The translations under genes were made by a program, and so were the position numbers. DNA of 64,000 nucleotides from Pseudomonas versuta (GTDB lineage: Bacteria; Pseudomonadota; Gammaproteobacteria; Pseudomonadales; Pseudomonadaceae), in the NCBI RefSeq assembly GCF_001294575.1, contig NZ_CP012676.1:1488001-1552000 (forward strand). Direction: 5' to 3'. Position 1 is the first letter of the stretch, and each line of letters begins with the position of its first letter. Shown one piece after another: positions 10,801 through 20,982 of the stretch. The notes beneath the pieces were generated by a model that worked only from the letters and a program-made list of their open reading frames with translations, was not told the origin of the DNA and searched no databases.

Positions 10801-12027
10801 TTATCCGGCCTTCAGGTTATTACCGATCTGCCACACATACAGCGGCTCGGTCCCGTTGATTTTCCAGTCGCCGACAATCCGTGCCTTGTAGATCCACGGG
10901 TTGTGCGAAGCGGCGGTGCGGGCGTTGCGCCAGTGACGGTCCAGGGACTTGCTGACGCTGACACCCGAGGCGCCCAAGGCATTGAACAGGTCGCTGGCCG
11001 CTCGCAGAATCAGCTCTGAGATCACCACCTGAGCCTTTGCTGTTTCGATTTCAGCATCGATATTGGCCTGGCGCTCGAGCGCTTCATCATTGCCAAACCG
11101 CGCGACATAAGCCCGCTGCAGCGGCAAGGCGCAGCGCAGGGTCGCGGCTTCGGCAGCGTACACCTGGGCGGATATCTGCCCCACCACCTGCTGGATTTGC
11201 GCGTCACCCCGGGCAGTGTCGGCATTGCCATGGCTGAACACCCGTTTGCGCTCGCGTATCTCTTGCGTCACATCGCGTTCTATCGCACGGCCGATTCCGG
11301 CCAGCACGGCCAGGAGTACCAGCTGGTAAAAGGCGGTCTGGTACTTGAAGCGGGTTTCGAAGGGGATCACGTGTTCGGCGGTCAACGGCACGTCGACATA
11401 CACCGAGGTGCCGCTGCCGGTGGTGCGCTGGCCAAAACCGTCCCAGTCATCGCTGTGGGTGACGCCGGGGTGGCGGGCATCCACTACGGCGATAACATCA
11501 GCGCCGTTATCCGAGCGCCGGGCATACACATCAATCCAGTCGGCGAAGATACTGCCGGTGCTGTAGTACTTGGCGCCGTTAAGCACAAAGCCGGCGGCCT
11601 GCGGGCTGACTTTGGTGATGACTTCGCCCAGCTTGACCGAGCCCACTTCAGTCCAGCCATTACCCACCAGCTCGCCTGCCACGAAACGTGCGAACCAGGC
11701 ATCCCGGGCCGGACCTGGCGGTGCATTGAGACGATCTTCGACAAAGGCAAAGTGGGCACGCAGTGCTTGAGGGATATTGGAGTCAGCTTCGGCCAGCTCG
11801 ATCAGCAGCTCAAACAACTGGGTCACCGAAGCACCGGCGCCGCCGTACTCGACCGGTACCCGTACCGCGCCAAAACCGGCCTGCTTGAGTATCTGGATGG
11901 ATTCACGGGGCAGGTCACGGCCCTGTTCGCGCTCGACGTTGCCGGCGGCGATTTGCCGAAACAGCGGGCGGAAGCGATTGGCCAGGGTTTCGTAGTCGGT
12001 GCCTACGGACAGAGGTGAGGTGGTCAT
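10801..12027 (-). CDS. Acyl-CoA dehydrogenase-fold flavin monooxygenase (DszC/SfnB-like), organosulfur metabolism
   Basis: A 408-aa protein with the acyl-CoA dehydrogenase fold: the N-terminal helical domain has LKQAGFGAVRVPVEYGGAGASVTQLF, the beta domain has GNGWTEVGS and GFVLNGAKYYSTGS, and the C-terminal helical domain ends SLDRHWRNARTAASHNPWIYKARIVGDW. These DszC/SfnB/MsuC relatives use FMNH2 and O2 to oxygenate sulfur compounds instead of dehydrogenating CoA esters. The ATG at 12027 has AGGAG 8 nt upstream. A strong sigma-54 promoter (12067-12083) and shared upstream palindromes link it to SfnR control. It is divergent from the LLM monooxygenase gene. The exact substrate is not determined by sequence. 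Confidence 0.82.
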   Translation of the reverse strand: MTTSPLSVGTDYETLANRFRPLFRQIAAGNVEREQGRDLPRESIQILKQAGFGAVRVPVEYGGAGASVTQLFELLIELAEADSNIPQALRAHFAFVEDRLNAPPGPARDAWFARFVAGELVGNGWTEVGSVKLGEVITKVSPQAAGFVLNGAKYYSTGSIFADWIDVYARRSDNGADVIAVVDARHPGVTHSDDWDGFGQRTTGSGTSVYVDVPLTAEHVIPFETRFKYQTAFYQLVLLAVLAGIGRAIERDVTQEIRERKRVFSHGNADTARGDAQIQQVVGQISAQVYAAEAATLRCALPLQRAYVARFGNDEALERQANIDAEIETAKAQVVISELILRAASDLFNALGASGVSVSKSLDRHWRNARTAASHNPWIYKARIVGDWKINGTEPLYVWQIGNNLKAG

Positions 12028-12066: not shown

Positions 12067-12083
12067 TGCATAGTCTGTGCCGT
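12067..12083 (-). promoter_or_regulatory. Sigma-54 (-24/-12) promoter of the DszC-like gene
   Basis: On the minus strand this reads ACGGCACAGACTATGCA, matching TTGGCACG-N4-TTGCW with the invariant GG and GC at the correct 10-nt spacing. It ends 40 bp before the start codon at 12027, a sensible leader length. Confidence 0.75.
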
Positions 12084-12323: not shown

Positions 12324-12352
12324 GTTGCCGGGGCAACAGTTGCCCGGATAAC
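12324..12352. promoter_or_regulatory. Tandem GTTGC-N4-GCAAC palindromes, candidate SfnR enhancer sites
   Basis: GTTGCCGGGGCAAC (12324-12337) is followed one base later by the imperfect copy GTTGCCCGGATAAC (12339-12352). The same double site, with the same 15-nt period, lies upstream of msuE at 20954-20982. Its position between two divergent sigma-54 promoters fits an enhancer for a sigma-54 activator; SfnR, encoded at 16628-17734, is the obvious candidate. Confidence 0.65.
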
Positions 12353-12377: not shown

Positions 12378-12394
12378 CCGGCACGCCCTGTGCA
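12378..12394 (+). promoter_or_regulatory. Sigma-54 promoter of the LLM monooxygenase gene
   Basis: CCGGCACGCCCTGTGCA matches TTGGCACG-N4-TTGCW with GG and GC in register. It ends 65 bp before the ATG at 12460. Confidence 0.75.
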
Positions 12395-12459: not shown

Positions 12460-13860
12460 ATGTCCCGCGAAATCCGTCTCAACGCTTTTGACATGAACTG
12501 TGTCGGCCACCAGTCGCCCGGCCTGTGGGCGCATCCCCGAGACCGTTCGTGGCAGTACAAGGACCTCGAATACTGGACCGATCTGGCGAAAATCCTCGAG
12601 CGTGGCAAGTTCGACGGGCTGTTTATCGCCGATGTGCTGGGCATCTATGACGTTTACCGCGGCAACGGTGATGCGGCTATCCGCCAGGGCGCGCAGGTGC
12701 CGGTCAATGATCCGTTGCAGCTGATCCCGCCGATGGCTCTGGTGACCGAGCACCTGGGGTTCGGCCTGACCGCCTCACTGTCGTTCGAGCATCCCTATCC
12801 GTTCGCCCGGCGCCTGTCGACCCTGGACCACCTGACCAAGGGCCGTGCCGGCTGGAACATAGTGACCTCCTATCTGGAAAGCGGCGCCAAGAACATCGGC
12901 CAGCAAGCCCTGACCGAACACGATGCGCGCTACGACTATGCCGAGGAGTACCTCGAGGTTTGCTACAAGCTGTGGGAGGGCAGCTGGGAGGAGGGTGCCA
13001 TCTTGCGCGATCGCGAACGGCGGGTATTCAGCGACCCGAGCAAGATTCATGAAATCCGCCATGTCGGCAAACACTTCCAGGTGCCGGGGATTCACTTGTG
13101 CGAACCCTCGCCACAGCGCACGCCGCTGCTGTATCAGGCCGGCGCTTCGAGTCGCGGCCGTCAGTTCGCCGCCGAGCAGGCGGAGTGCGTATTTGTCGCC
13201 GCGCCGTCCAAGGTCTTGCTGAAGAAAACCGTCAGCGATATTCGTCGGCGTGCAGCCGAGGCGGGCCGTGATCCGGCAAAAATTCTGATCTTCAACCTGC
13301 AGACGGTCATCCTCGGTGAAACCGATGCGCTGGCCAAAGCCAAGTTTGAAGAATACAAAAGCTATGTCAGCTACGAAGGCGCGATGGCCTTGATCTCGGG
13401 CTGGACCGGCATCGATTTCAGCCAGTTCAAGCCTGATGATCCGCTTAAAAACGTGCCCACCAATGCGATCAAATCAGCGGTGGAAACCTTCTCGACAGCT
13501 GATCCGAACACCATCTGGACCCCCAACGCGCTGGCCGACTGGGTCGGTATCGGCGGCTTTGGTCCGCTGTTCGTCGGCGGCCCTGAAACCGTAGCCGACC
13601 TGCTTGAAGAATGGGTCGAGGAAACCGGAGTCGACGGCTTCAACCTGGCCTACGCGGTGACCCACGAAACCTTTATCGACGCTGTGGAGTTGCTGGTCCC
13701 GGAGTTGCAAAAACGCGGTGTGTACAAGAAGGAGTACGCCACGGGCACCTTGCGCGAGAAGCTGTTTGGCGAAGGCCCGCGCCTGGCCGACGGGCATCCG
13801 GGTGCGGCGTACCGCAACCTTGGCGAATTGAATCGCGCGCAACAAAAAGAGCGCGCCTGA
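12460..13860 (+). CDS. LLM-class flavin-dependent monooxygenase (NtaA/SnaA/DszA family)
   Basis: A 466-aa luciferase-like TIM-barrel monooxygenase. NtaA/DszA hallmarks include LFIADVLGIYDVYRG, ASLSFEHPYPFARRLSTLDHLTKGRAGWNIVTSYL (residues ~105-140), LYQAGASSRGRQFAAEQAE and GPLFVGGPETVADLLEEWVEETGVDGFNL. Enzymes of this group take FMNH2 from a separate reductase and cleave C-S or C-N bonds, for example in DszA, nitrilotriacetate monooxygenase and dimethylsulfide monooxygenase. The ATG at 12460 follows AGGAG. Its sigma-54 promoter and shared enhancer imply expression under sulfur limitation. MsuE is a possible FMN reductase partner. Confidence 0.85.
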   Translation: MSREIRLNAFDMNCVGHQSPGLWAHPRDRSWQYKDLEYWTDLAKILERGKFDGLFIADVLGIYDVYRGNGDAAIRQGAQVPVNDPLQLIPPMALVTEHLGFGLTASLSFEHPYPFARRLSTLDHLTKGRAGWNIVTSYLESGAKNIGQQALTEHDARYDYAEEYLEVCYKLWEGSWEEGAILRDRERRVFSDPSKIHEIRHVGKHFQVPGIHLCEPSPQRTPLLYQAGASSRGRQFAAEQAECVFVAAPSKVLLKKTVSDIRRRAAEAGRDPAKILIFNLQTVILGETDALAKAKFEEYKSYVSYEGAMALISGWTGIDFSQFKPDDPLKNVPTNAIKSAVETFSTADPNTIWTPNALADWVGIGGFGPLFVGGPETVADLLEEWVEETGVDGFNLAYAVTHETFIDAVELLVPELQKRGVYKKEYATGTLREKLFGEGPRLADGHPGAAYRNLGELNRAQQKERA

Positions 13861-15381: not shown

Positions 15382-15522
15382 GCAGGAGCGAGCTTCTCAA
15401 GAAGGCCGCGTTCACTCGGTCATCGATACAGGCTCGATAAAAAGCTCGCGAGGCAAGCTCGCTCCTACAGGGGGGCGGGCAGCAGGGCGTTATCTGTAGG
15501 AGCGAGCTTGTCTCGCGGGCTT
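15382..15522. repeat. Cluster of three REP units
   Basis: AGCAGGAGCGAGCTTCTC (15382), the inverted AAAGCTCGCGAGGCAAGCTCGCTCCTACAG (15441-15470) and a direct CTGTAGGAGCGAGCTTGTCTCGCGGGC (15494 onward) fill the gap between the YdhS-like gene and the convergent aldo/keto reductase gene. Confidence 0.85.
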
Positions 15523-16627: not shown

Positions 16628-17734
16628 TCAGATGCACAGGTTTAGCATTCTTTCGCTTTGCGGTGTGTCATTGGTGCGGCGTTTGTTGACCGCCAGTTCA
16701 CCGATGTTGATCAGCCGGGTGCGGGTGACGTTGCGGCTCAGGCCCAGCAGGTTGGCGGTGTGGACCTGATTGTAGTGACAGAACCGGTAGGCCGCGCGGA
16801 ACAGCACGTCTTCGACTTTTTCGTGCAGGGCTCCAGGCTGTTCTTCAAACAGTTGCTGGAAAGCACGCTCCAACAGGCCCTCGGTAGAGTTGTCAGTGGC
16901 CGTGGCGTCTTCTTGGCGTTCGATGCGCATGTTGGACAGTCGCAGGTCATCGCTCTGGATCAGGCCATCGCGGCAGATCAGCAGTGTGTGGTGGATCACG
17001 TTCTCCAGTTCGCGGATGTTGCCTGGCCAGCCATAGGCCTGCAGCTTGTTTTCCGCTGCCGGGCTCAGGCGGACTTCGCCATAGCCCAGGCGCTTGCTGT
17101 AGGCCTCGATAAAGTGCCGGATCAGCGGCAGGATGTCGCCGGGCCGCTCGCGCAACGGGCTGAGTTCAAGGTTTACCACGTCCAGGCGATAGAACAGGTC
17201 CTCGCGAAAATGCCCGGCATTGATCGCCTTTTCCAGCTGCACGTTGGTGGCCGCCAGTACCCGCACATCGATGGGGATGCTTTTGCGCGACCCCAGGCGC
17301 ACCACCTCGCGCTCCTGCAGTACGCGCAGCAGCTTGACCTGGATGGCCATCGGCAAATCACCGATTTCATCGAGAAACAGGGTGCCGCCGTTAGCTTCTT
17401 CGAACCAGCCGGCCTTGGCACTGAGTGCGCCGGTGAAGGCGCCTTTCTCGTGGCCAAACAGCTCGGCTTCTACCAGTGATTCTGAGAACGCGCCGCAGTT
17501 GACCGCAATAAACGGACGGTTACGCCGTGCGCTCAAATTATGAATATGGCGGGCGACCAGTTCTTTGCCGGTGCCGGTTTCGCCAATGATCAGCACGCTG
17601 GCTTCACTGGGTGCGACCTGCTGCAAATGCGCCAGCAAAGCCTTGGATTTCGGATCTTCGAACACTTGCGCGGTGGCGCGGATCGACGTGGCCAGGGCGG
17701 GTGAGGGCGGTAGCGTCAAAAGCTGCATAGGCAT
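16628..17734 (-). CDS. sfnR: Sigma-54-dependent activator SfnR-like
   Basis: A 368-aa enhancer-binding protein with almost no N-terminal regulatory domain, as known for SfnR. The AAA+ domain shows Walker A GETGTGKE (51-58), the sigma-54 contact loop GAFTGA (98-103) and Walker B GGTLFLDEIGDL. The C-terminus carries a Fis-type HTH (HTANLLGLSRNVTRTRLINIG). SfnR activates sulfone and sulfonate utilisation genes when sulfate is scarce. The gene starts 2 bp after the msuC stop, so it is the last gene of msuEDC-sfnR, the same order as the P. aeruginosa locus. Lacking a sensor domain, it is probably controlled by its own abundance. Confidence 0.88.
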   Translation of the reverse strand: MPMQLLTLPPSPALATSIRATAQVFEDPKSKALLAHLQQVAPSEASVLIIGETGTGKELVARHIHNLSARRNRPFIAVNCGAFSESLVEAELFGHEKGAFTGALSAKAGWFEEANGGTLFLDEIGDLPMAIQVKLLRVLQEREVVRLGSRKSIPIDVRVLAATNVQLEKAINAGHFREDLFYRLDVVNLELSPLRERPGDILPLIRHFIEAYSKRLGYGEVRLSPAAENKLQAYGWPGNIRELENVIHHTLLICRDGLIQSDDLRLSNMRIERQEDATATDNSTEGLLERAFQQLFEEQPGALHEKVEDVLFRAAYRFCHYNQVHTANLLGLSRNVTRTRLINIGELAVNKRRTNDTPQSERMLNLCI

Positions 17735-17736
17735 CT

Positions 17737-18924
17737 CTAGGAATAGAAAGTGGGAGTCGGCAGGTTCTGGTTCAGTGCCCAGTCGCCCAATTCTTGAAGC
17801 TTGTAATCCAGCGGGTCATGCAGGCTTTGGGTGCGCAGGTTGCGCCAGTGTCGGTCCAGACCGACTGCGGTGTGCGTGGCACGGGCTCCCGTGACTTCAA
17901 ACACTTTGCTACACACCTCCAGGCCGTGGCGGTTGGCGGCGACTTTGGCGGTGGCGATAGCCACTGCCACCTGGCCGCGCTCAGCGCTGCTGAGTCTCGA
18001 ACCCTTGGCCCAGGCTTTGTCCAGCAGGCCTGCGGCATGCTCGACCAGTAGCCGGGCACTTTCCAGGCCAACCCAGAAGTCGCCGTAGTGCCCCAGTACG
18101 TAAGGGTCCTGATGGTTCTGGGTGGCGCCGGATTTAAACCACGGGCGGGTTTCGGTGAGGGTGTACTGGCGCGCCTCTTCGAACGCGCCCTGGGCGATGC
18201 CGAGAAAAATATTGGCGAAATGCAGCTGTGCAATCAAAGGCCGCAGGCAGGCGAACGGCGTGCTCAACGGACCCGGATCGAGCAGCAAGTCGGACTCTTC
18301 GACCCTTACCCGCTCGAAGGTTGCGCTGCCGCTGTCGGTCTGGCGCTGGCCCATGTTGTCCCAGTCATCGTGCAAGGTAATGCCGGTCCGACTGCTGGGA
18401 ATGGCGGCAATCAACAGCTTGCCGCCGGCGCTTTCATCCACCGCCGAGGCGATCAGCATTTGTGAATCGCTGGCCCCGGAACAGAAACTTTTTTTGCCGG
18501 AAAATTCGCGCCAGCCAGCGAAGTTACGCACGGTGGTGCGGGTGTCCAGGGGGTTGAGGGCGTTGCCCCAGAACCAGTTTTTGCGTGCTGTGAGCTCGAA
18601 CCAGGGCTGCCATTGCTCGGGGCGTGCGAACAACCTGACAGTGGCGAGCATCAAGTGATGAAAGCCGAATACGTGGGCAATGGAACTGTCGACGCGGGCA
18701 AACTCGCGCACCACCTCAAAGGTTTCACGCCAGCTGGCCCCCAGCCCGCCGAACTGGACGGGAATGCTCAAGGCCAGCAGGCCGCTGGCACGCAGGGCAT
18801 CGCGTTGTGCAATTGGCGTACCGCCGCGCTCGTCACGTTCGACTGCGCTGTGAGCGAATTCGCTGGCCAGCTCCCGGGCAGTTTGCAGCGGTGAAAGAGC
18901 TGCGTCTTGTAGATGGGCTGTCAC
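17737..18924 (-). CDS. msuC: FMNH2-dependent methanesulfinate monooxygenase MsuC-like
   Basis: A 395-aa acyl-CoA dehydrogenase-fold oxygenase with SIPVQFGGLGASWRETFEVVREFARVDSS in the N-terminal domain, WREFSGKKSFCSGASDSQML and DDWDNMGQRQTDSGSATFERV in the beta domain, and GLDRHWRNLRTQSLHDPLDYK at the C-terminus. Position between msuD and sfnR identifies it as MsuC, which oxidises methanesulfinate to methanesulfonate using FMNH2 from MsuE. It uses a GTG start, supported by GGAGG 9 nt upstream. A REP pair separates it from msuD. Confidence 0.85.
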   Translation of the reverse strand: MTAHLQDAALSPLQTARELASEFAHSAVERDERGGTPIAQRDALRASGLLALSIPVQFGGLGASWRETFEVVREFARVDSSIAHVFGFHHLMLATVRLFARPEQWQPWFELTARKNWFWGNALNPLDTRTTVRNFAGWREFSGKKSFCSGASDSQMLIASAVDESAGGKLLIAAIPSSRTGITLHDDWDNMGQRQTDSGSATFERVRVEESDLLLDPGPLSTPFACLRPLIAQLHFANIFLGIAQGAFEEARQYTLTETRPWFKSGATQNHQDPYVLGHYGDFWVGLESARLLVEHAAGLLDKAWAKGSRLSSAERGQVAVAIATAKVAANRHGLEVCSKVFEVTGARATHTAVGLDRHWRNLRTQSLHDPLDYKLQELGDWALNQNLPTPTFYS

Positions 18925-18965
18925 GGGTTATGGCCTCCATTTCAAATAATCCTGCCCCAGTGTTT

Positions 18966-19056
18966 CTGTAGGAGCGAGCTTGCTCGCGAGCTGTTTGGGG
19001 CAGTTTGATATCTGCGGCGCTGCTTTGAAGAGCTCGCGAGCAAGCTCGCTCCTACA
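18966..19056. repeat. REP element pair inside the msu operon
   Basis: CTGTAGGAGCGAGCTTGCTCGCGAGCT and its inverted copy AGCTCGCGAGCAAGCTCGCTCCTACA are separated by about 37 nt, giving a near-perfect long stem between msuD and msuC. Such a structure may protect or attenuate the msuED part of the message. Confidence 0.9.
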
Positions 19057-19098
19057 TAACAACTTCGTTCCTACAGTTGGTTCGATCCAGGGCTGGCC

Positions 19099-20238
19099 TC
19101 ATGCCTTGGCGGGCAGGACGTCGTTGGCGATCATTTCGCCAAACGGGCCCGTCAGGTTGGTGATGCCGCGTCCAGCCAGGCTGGCGTAGGGCTCGGGCAA
19201 CAAGGGGAAGACCAGTTCGGCAAAACGGTAGGCCTCTTCCAGATGCGGGTAGCCGGAAAAGATGAAGCTCTCGATGCCCAGGTCTGCGTACTCCTTGATC
19301 CGTGCCGCCACTTGTTGCGGGTCGCCCACCAGCGCTGTGCCGGCGCCGCCACGAACCAGGCCGACACCGGCCCACAGGTTGGGGGCGATTTGCAGGTTGT
19401 CGCGGCGTCCGTCGTGCAGTGCCGCCATGCGGCGCTGGCCTTCAGAGTCAAAACGCGAGAAGGATTTTTGTGCGGCCGCAATGGTTTCGTCGCTGATGTG
19501 CTCGATCAGTTTGTCTGCCGCAGCCCAGGCCTCCTGTTCAGTTTCGCGCACGATTACATGCAGGCGGATACCGAAGCGTACAGTACGGCCCTGGCGGGCT
19601 GCGCGCTCGCGCACATCGGCCAGCTTCTCGGCCACGGCCGCCGGTGGCTCGCCCCAGGTCAGGTACACATCGACCTGCTCGGCAGCCAGATCATGGGCCG
19701 CTTCGGAAGAGCCGCCAAAGTACAGCGGCGGATAAGGTTTCTGCACGGGCGGGTACAGCGCCTTGGCGTTCTGAACCCGCAGGTGCTTGCCTTCGAAGTC
19801 CACGGCTTCGCCTTGCAGGACCCGGCGCCAGATTTTCAGAAATTCGTCGGTGACTTCATAACGTTCGCTGTGATCGAGGAAGCTGCCGTCGCCACGGTTC
19901 TCATCGGGGTCGCCGCCGGTCACCACATTGATCAGCAGGCGCCCGCCGGACAGTCGGTCCAAGGTAGCGGCCATGCGCGCCGAGACCGTCGGCGAAATAA
20001 TCCCCGGACGGATGGCCACCAGATAGCGTAAACGCTCGGTCAGTGGCACCAGTGCCGAGGCGATCACCCACGAGTCCTCGCACGAGCGGCCGGTGGGGAT
20101 CAGGACGCCGTGGTAGCCCAGATCGTCGGCCGCCTGGGCGACCTGTTTCAGGTAATTGAGAGTGACCGGGCGGGCCCCCTGGGTCGTACCCAGGTAATGG
20201 CCGTCGCCGTGGGTGGGAAGAAACCAGAACACATCCAT
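19099..20238 (-). CDS. msuD: FMNH2-dependent alkane/methanesulfonate monooxygenase MsuD
   Basis: A 379-aa luciferase-like TIM-barrel enzyme closely resembling SsuD/Msu[20 protein letters not shown] at the N-terminus, [42 protein letters not shown] (about residues 75-116), and [28 protein letters not shown]. It desulfonates short alkanesulfonates to sulfite and an aldehyde with FMNH2 and O2. The ATG at 20238 has AAGGA upstream. It lies 10 bp after msuE, its flavin reductase. Confidence 0.92.
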
Positions 20239-20248
20239 GACAGAGTCC

Positions 20249-20812
20249 TTAAGCGGTTTTAAGCAGGTGTTTGGCAGACACGCCGAACAGGGGCGCGGCA
20301 CGTTCTGCAGCAAGGCGGATGCGAGTCTTCAGGGGCTCACTGGTTATCTGGTAGTTGGCAAAGTCGGATTCGACGGCATACACCCCGATCGGCAGGGTCA
20401 ACGCCTGAAAGAAACCGAACAGCGGACGCAGCTGATGTTCAAGCACCAGGGCATGACGTTCACTGCCGCCGGTGGCGGCGAGCAATACCGGGGTATCGAT
20501 CAGGCCGTTGATGTCCACCAGGTCGAACAGGTGCTTGAGCAGACCCGGGTAGGAGCCGCGATAAACCGGAGTGGCAACGATCAGCAGGTCGGCGTTTTCG
20601 ATGGCCTGGATTTGTGCTTCGACCTCAGCACCCAGCTCCGCGCGTGACAGGGCACCGCCTAATTGCCGGGCGATATCGCCCAGCTCGATCAAGTGACTCT
20701 CGATGCAGAGCCGGGTTTGCAGCTCGTCGAGAATCGCCTGGGCCAGAACCAGAGTGCGTGAAGGGCTGAAGGCTCCTCCAGAAACGACAACGACTTGCAG
20801 GGCGTGAGACAT
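20249..20812 (-). CDS. msuE: NADPH-dependent FMN reductase MsuE
   Basis: A 187-aa flavodoxin-like reductase: [27 protein letters not shown] supplies the phosphate-binding loop, and [27 protein letters not shown] together with [23 protein letters not shown] is typical of the SsuE/MsuE family. It supplies FMNH2 to MsuD and MsuC, and possibly to the other oxygenases of the region. The ATG at 20812 is preceded by AAAGGA. It is first in the operon, about 52 bp downstream of a sigma-54 promoter and a pair of GTTGC-N4-GCAAC sites. Confidence 0.92.
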
Positions 20813-20864: not shown

Positions 20865-20881
20865 AGCAAACTCCGTACCAA
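20865..20881 (-). promoter_or_regulatory. Sigma-54 promoter of msuEDC-sfnR
   Basis: On the minus strand this reads TTGGTACGGAGTTTGCT, an almost exact match to TTGGCACG-N4-TTGCW. It lies about 52 bp upstream of the msuE ATG. Confidence 0.8.
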
Positions 20882-20953
20882 CAGGCCAAACCCCTGAATA
20901 CAGGGGCTGAGCAGGCGCTTGCTGTTGTCGTGGCAGGTATTTGCTGATCCGCT

Positions 20954-20982
20954 GTTGCTGTGGCAACAGTTGCTGTAGCAAC
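20954..20982. promoter_or_regulatory. Tandem GTTGC-N4-GCAAC palindromes upstream of msuE
   Basis: GTTGCTGTGGCAAC (20954-20967) and GTTGCTGTAGCAAC (20969-20982) are two perfect-arm palindromes separated by one base, about 75 bp upstream of the sigma-54 promoter: the expected place for an enhancer-binding protein. The same arrangement occurs at 12324-12352. Confidence 0.7.

Follow-up and report, generated by a model that had tools for sequence, protein, structure and literature searches.

The msuE promoter of Pseudomonas versuta lies within a window of 64,000 nucleotides, the whole stretch of DNA analysed here, and heads four genes in the order msuE-msuD-msuC-sfnR with the regulator last. The genes and the elements of their promoter are as follows:

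20249-20812, minus strand: msuE, FMN reductase (TIGR03566)
19099-20238, minus strand: msuD, alkanesulfonate monooxygenase (TIGR03565; start codon judged from the translation)
17737-18924, minus strand: msuC, DszC/SfnB-like oxidoreductase (scores under the cut-offs of both models)
16628-17734, minus strand: sfnR, sigma-54 activator (AAA+ residues 26-189; no sensor domain)
20881-20865, minus strand: sigma-54 element TTGGTACG-GAGT-TTGCT (T-TGGTACG-GAGT-TTGCT), read directly and found by pattern search
20940-20972, minus strand: composite SfnR box (predicted), motif from 44 msuE promoters, 2 mismatches at this site
20954-20967, no strand assigned: palindrome copy nearer msuE, GTTGCTGTGGCAAC, perfect 5-bp arms, direct reading and pattern scan
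20969-20982, no strand assigned: palindrome copy GTTGCTGTAGCAAC, perfect 5-bp arms, 15 nt from the first copy

The genome thus encodes an SfnR orthologue with a sigma-54 interaction domain, which starts at residue 26 with nothing sensor-like ahead of it. The sfnR gene starts 2 bases past msuC, and the same gap is estimated at 7-20 bases in the 14 relatives measured (L041-L054). A search of the msuD-msuC gap (18925-19098) finds no sigma-70-like promoter, terminator-like or sigma-54 site. On its minus strand the gap does hold a REP-like hairpin (TGTAGGAGCGAGCTTGCTCGCGAG ... CTCGCGAGCAAGCTCGCTCCTACA) that could reduce expression of msuC-sfnR, and letters resembling it also occur near 15430-15520.

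The palindrome pair is GTTGC-N4-GCAAC written twice with a period of 15 nt, a single A separating the copies. It occupies part of the 382 bp of intergenic DNA separating msuE, which starts at 20812 on the minus strand, from a potF-like gene that runs divergently from 21195. An earlier note on this DNA had described two perfect-arm copies spaced 15 nt start to start, about 75 bp from the sigma-54 element; direct reading confirms the arms and the period, and the distance measures 72 bases. The -24/-12 element (GG-N10-GC) stands downstream of the box.

A lone GTTGC-N4-GCAAC is close to chance in the window (7 matches at ≤1 mismatch against 4.5 expected), so that the tandem arrangement carries the signal and single-palindrome statistics were dropped as evidence. 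The tandem pattern matches the window twice at ≤3 mismatches, at 20954-20982 (0 mismatches) and at 12324-12352 (2 mismatches). Shuffled windows give a mean of 0.02 matches, and none of 100 shuffles reaches two. Over the whole genome (5.15 Mb, one contig) there are 6 such places at ≤3 mismatches, the best two being the msuE pair and the 12324 pair, and the genome read backwards as a control has 0. The msuE pair is therefore beyond chance.

Conservation of the msuE promoter and its composite motif

When the gap between two exact palindromes may be anything from 0 to 30, the 149 genomes surveyed in the genus yield 5 sites, all with gap 1 and all immediately upstream of msuE, against none in the control. 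With the period fixed at 15 nt and ≤2 mismatches allowed, 73 sites appear in 58 genomes (control, 12 sites in 10 genomes), and msuE accounts for 5/5 of those with 0 mismatches, 15/15 with 1 and 18/53 with 2. Besides 12324, 7 of the 35 non-msuE pair sites were opened: two are msu operons with a damaged msuE (L248, L249), and none of the other five (L250-L254) matches the sulfur-gene queries. At L248 (genome G087) and L249 (G058) the box and msuD are retained while msuE is damaged or partial, possibly through assembly error; in G058 sfnR is seen only as fragments. A wider exact-pair scan of contigs gives, among the matches listed, mostly unrelated taxa, along with at least two more perfect-pair msuE promoters, in Pseudomonas koreensis (L155) and Pseudomonas sp. 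RIT288 (L167). Perfect 15-nt pairs also occur in Clostridia-type MAGs (L082, L084, L092, L095, L108, L124, L128, L133, L134), where by eye they read GTT GCN NNN GCA ACN, a Val-Ala-x-Ala-Thr codon repeat in coding DNA. Such gap-1 coding repeats in other phyla call for caution in pattern scans; the msuE pair, by contrast, is intergenic.

MsuE itself gives 61 matches in 60 of the 149 genomes, and the upstream DNA of all 61 was inspected, a comparison across other pseudomonads that the earlier note had proposed. Pair and sigma-54 promoter are kept in all 44 orthologues at ≥74% identity. In these, 16-20 of the 20 fixed letters agree in the best 15-nt pair, which lies 141-180 bp upstream of the start codon; a TGGTAY-type sigma-54 element precedes the same codon by 59-95 bp. 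A gap other than 1 ties in one and is better in none. In the 17 more distant homologues (48-71% identity) the pair score drops to 12-15 of 20 and the full pair is lost.

A consensus of the 44 sites (33 distinct 29-mers, 43 distinct 63-mers) reads ACTGTT(gc)..GCAAC-T-GTT-N7-CAAC-AG-N3-TTCAACAAA. The outer letters, GTT and AAC, hardly vary while the inner GC slides, and the third half-site, TTCAACAAA, is conserved as strongly as the palindromes; in P. versuta it reads ATCAGCAAA (20948-20940). The "double palindrome" of the earlier note is thus real but incomplete, for the outer letters and the third half-site are conserved as well. The half-sites follow one another as GTT-11-AAC-4-GTT-11-AAC-11-AAC.

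The search pattern CAACTGTT-N7-CAACAG-N3-TTCAACAAA, learned from msuE alone, finds at ≤3 mismatches 117 sites in 68 of the 149 genomes against 1 control site. They divide into 47 at msuE, 31 at sfnG, of which one points the other way, and 39 elsewhere. With a spacer one base longer the composite has 0 sites in the same genomes, at ≤2 rather than 3 mismatches. The single match of a composite variant in the P. versuta genome is the msuE site. At ≤5 mismatches the composite persists in 10 of the 17 distant MsuE homologues. Among 293 genomes of the order it matches in nine (control, 3 sites). Three of these (G000, G083, G135) belong to the same genus and one (G241) to a sister genus, where the site has an MsuD-like gene and a sigma-54 element at 61 bp; the five from other families have neither a sigma-54 element nor a sulfur-gene match. 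The distance from composite to sigma-54 element is near-fixed at msuE: of the 52 promoters having both elements, 51 show 69-74 bp. The P. versuta promoter, at 59 bp from box edge to element, is about one helical turn shorter.

The box at other sulfur genes and its co-occurrence with SfnR

The composite recurs upstream of sfnG. Of 67 sfnG matches four were left out, and 48 of the remaining 63 upstream regions carry it within 300 bp at ≤5 mismatches, while 0 of 315 shuffles match (best shuffle, 7 mismatches). The P. versuta sfnG has a box with 2 mismatches. Five of the 15 regions lacking it at this threshold belong to sfnF-sfnG operons, where the promoter is situated farther upstream. The box is found at stand-alone sfnG genes and is weak at sfnF-sfnG operons: where an MsuE homologue is followed by sfnG (sfnF-sfnG type, L067-L071), the composite appears only with 6-9 mismatches. 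It is this weak match, at the operon type that the literature names, which speaks most strongly against a simple picture. As judged by eye, L067-L069 retain GTT-N8-AAC followed by another AAC 11 nt on, an arrangement absent in L070 and L071.

All 39 sites outside msuE and sfnG were opened, and two of them belong to msu operons whose msuE is damaged. The other 37 lie, apart from six left unassigned, upstream of SsuA-type sulfonate binding proteins (14), TonB-type receptors (5), MsuD-like (3), SfnB-family (3) and SsuE-like (2) proteins, RbsB-like binding proteins (2), MsuC-like (1) and SfnG (1). Target genes were called with family models on six representatives and by BLAST for the others. Together with the sfnG site of reversed direction, these 37 make 38 loci. 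At 31 of them a sigma-54 element follows within 260 bp downstream; no locus has one within 260 bp upstream, and none has one on the other strand of that downstream stretch. Twenty-five of the 31 elements lie at 59-61 or 70-73 bp. Spacing at sfnG is more variable (60-61, 71-75, 86-88 bp and longer). A periodicity in the distance from box to promoter, with a best period of 11.5 bp, is suggestive and no stronger, given a crude null and the recurrence of related promoters in the sample.

SfnR is matched at E ≤1e-130 in 94 of the 149 genomes, four of which have only a 62-63% paralogue, leaving 90. Genomes bearing the composite at ≤3 mismatches have SfnR in 66 of 68 cases and composite-free genomes in 24 of 81 (Fisher p 4e-19, genomes being counted singly regardless of kinship), an association that is partly forced because sfnR belongs to the msu operon. 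The two composite-bearing genomes lacking SfnR are G116 and G058, the latter with the sfnR fragments.

The second tandem pair of the window has a different standing. Its surroundings are:

12324-12352, no strand assigned: second tandem pair (2 mismatches, with an imperfect second copy), flanked by an SfnB-family and a DmoA-family gene in divergent orientation
12379-12394, plus strand: sigma-54 element CGGCACG-CCCT-GTGCA, ahead of the DmoA-family gene (12460-13860), by pattern search
12067-12082, minus strand: CGGCACA-GACT-ATGCA, a weaker sigma-54-like element oriented towards the SfnB-family gene (10801-12027), by eye and missed by the pattern

The earlier note had taken the identical period at this pair, next to sulfur-oxygenase promoters, as hard to explain by chance. 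The 15-nt period is present, and the pair carries 2 mismatches. A 15-nt pair reaches at most 14 of 20 in any of 29 other DmoA orthologue promoters (drawn from 62 further matches), and 22 of these have an SfnB-like gene upstream that shares the strand of the DmoA gene instead of diverging from it. The geometry differs too, with about 12 bp from box edge to the DmoA sigma-54 element against the usual 59-74. Chance is contradicted for the msuE pair, and the 12324 pair lacks that support; being unique among the genomes examined and so closely spaced, it is not taken as independent proof. Upstream of another DmoA orthologue (L320) a site of the AACTGTT-N8-AACAG type, CTAACTGTTTGCCGATCAACAGTGGATAAACA, is visible by eye with a sigma-54 element, AGGCACGACTCCTGCA, downstream. 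This combination makes SfnR control of DmoA-family genes plausible, through a different promoter in relatives.

SfnR as the predicted activator of its own operon

The segment 20940-20982 is best read as an enhancer (upstream activating sequence) of the SfnR encoded last in the same operon, to which we assign a probability of roughly 0.85 from sequence comparison. The proposal of the earlier note that the pair is an SfnR box gains support from its presence in all 44 closer msuE promoters, its recurrence at sfnG and its co-occurrence with SfnR. The element is a real, conserved enhancer of a known kind, and very probably SfnR's. When sulfate runs out, SfnR would rise through a first input, most likely CysB. 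Its dimers would occupy the two GTT-N8-AAC palindromes with a further contact at the third half-site, and an assembled AAA+ ring would contact and remodel sigma-54 RNA polymerase at TTGGTACG-N4-TTGCT, 59 bp from the element edge. The resulting msuEDC products would be accompanied by more SfnR, so that the operon promoter would close a positive feedback loop. Gene order, together with the lack of a promoter, terminator or sigma-54 site between msuD and msuC, suggests this last step. The positive autoregulation that the earlier note had put forward is thus consistent with gene order and promoter anatomy. With no sensor domain, the activity of SfnR is probably set by its amount.

The pair could instead be chance or a by-product of other repeats, such as REP elements or coding repeats. 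Gap-1 pairs are coding repeats in other phyla, REP-like hairpins lie close by, and 35 of the 53 plain pairs with 2 mismatches are away from msuE. Yet the shuffled and backwards controls, the intergenic place, the conservation and the empty search with the one-base-longer spacer make such an origin extremely improbable. A somewhat better case, still a very unlikely one, can be made for another regulator, for instance CysB, whose site happens to precede a sigma-54 promoter. Published titles have CysB acting on this regulon in P. putida, and a passage of PMC12581299 considers it a putative regulator for the msu as well as the sfn operons. Against this, the box is bound to sigma-54 promoters at narrow spacing, as an enhancer-binding protein predicts, and it tracks SfnR across genomes. 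CysB sites are moreover long and poorly conserved, unlike the box motif.

The alternative with most in its favour, although on balance unlikely, is that the box serves mainly a second SfnR, giving a cascade rather than autoregulation. The P. versuta genome encodes a second SfnR-like protein, 72-75% identical to the first, whose gene adjoins sfnG and is divergent from it (second SfnR/sfnG locus L214, C1:2993218-2994282 and 2994383-2995432). The helix-turn-helix stretch NQVHTA-LLGLSRNVTRTRLI is common to both proteins except for one residue, and the second may therefore use the same sites. A published title also ties dimethyl-sulfide use in P. aeruginosa to SfnR2. Most SfnR-positive genomes, however, have one such gene at the cut-off, and at the 14 loci where the operon could be followed (L041-L054) it lies in the msu operon every time, which leaves the operon's own SfnR as the sole close candidate in those species.

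Comparable systems are known. SfnR and sigma-54 reportedly control sfnFG, sfnA and sfnECR in Pseudomonas putida DS1 (work attributed to Endoh 2003, 2005; Habe 2007; Kouzuma 2008), SfnR2 is reported from P. aeruginosa (Lundgren 2019), and published titles name sfnG or sfnFG as an SfnR target. These systems share with the present one the activator family, sulfur-starvation genes and sigma-54 promoters; here the operator comes from genus-wide comparison and brings a third half-site and more candidate targets. PspF-type enhancer-binding proteins likewise have no sensor domain, and SfnR resembles them in carrying its AAA+ domain close to the N-terminus, ahead of a helix-turn-helix (by eye). It differs in its target genes and DNA site, and its control probably works through protein amount instead of a bound inhibitor. 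NorR enhancers comprise three sites that seed a hexamer; the likeness lies in several short inverted repeats that precede a sigma-54 promoter, the difference in two abutting palindromes at 15 nt with an extra half-site 11 nt on, as against three separate sites.

Under sulfur starvation P. aeruginosa raises msuD and msuE more than 50-fold and makes more of the SfnR1 and MsuCDE proteins, according to a passage of PMC12581299. Passages of PMC8234197, PMC13352529, PMC10256816, PMC3804575, PMC12581299, PMC7962211 and PMC10949508 state no SfnR binding motif, and a term search of PMC8041468 and PMC13086498 returns no mention of sfnR or msuE. The box definition, the third half-site and the candidate regulon are added here, and part of this may be in print in the primary SfnR papers.

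A defined box makes SfnR targets readable from sequence in pseudomonads, transport and receptor genes included, and yields a testable claim, namely that organosulfur scavenging is driven by a positive feedback loop of a sensor-less sigma-54 activator. A wider scheme is conceivable but rather doubtful. It would extend the SfnR regulon genus-wide beyond dimethyl-sulfone and methanesulfonate to SsuA-type proteins, TonB receptors, SsuE, and SfnB and MsuC paralogues. The five-half-site array would act as a template seeding an SfnR hexamer (two dimers plus the third contact), and array and feedback loop together would form the switch of a sensor-less activator. At five loci (L381, L384, L387, L392, L393) TonB-dependent receptors lie downstream of a predicted SfnR box and a sigma-54 element, and these are candidate outer-membrane receptors for organosulfur compounds.
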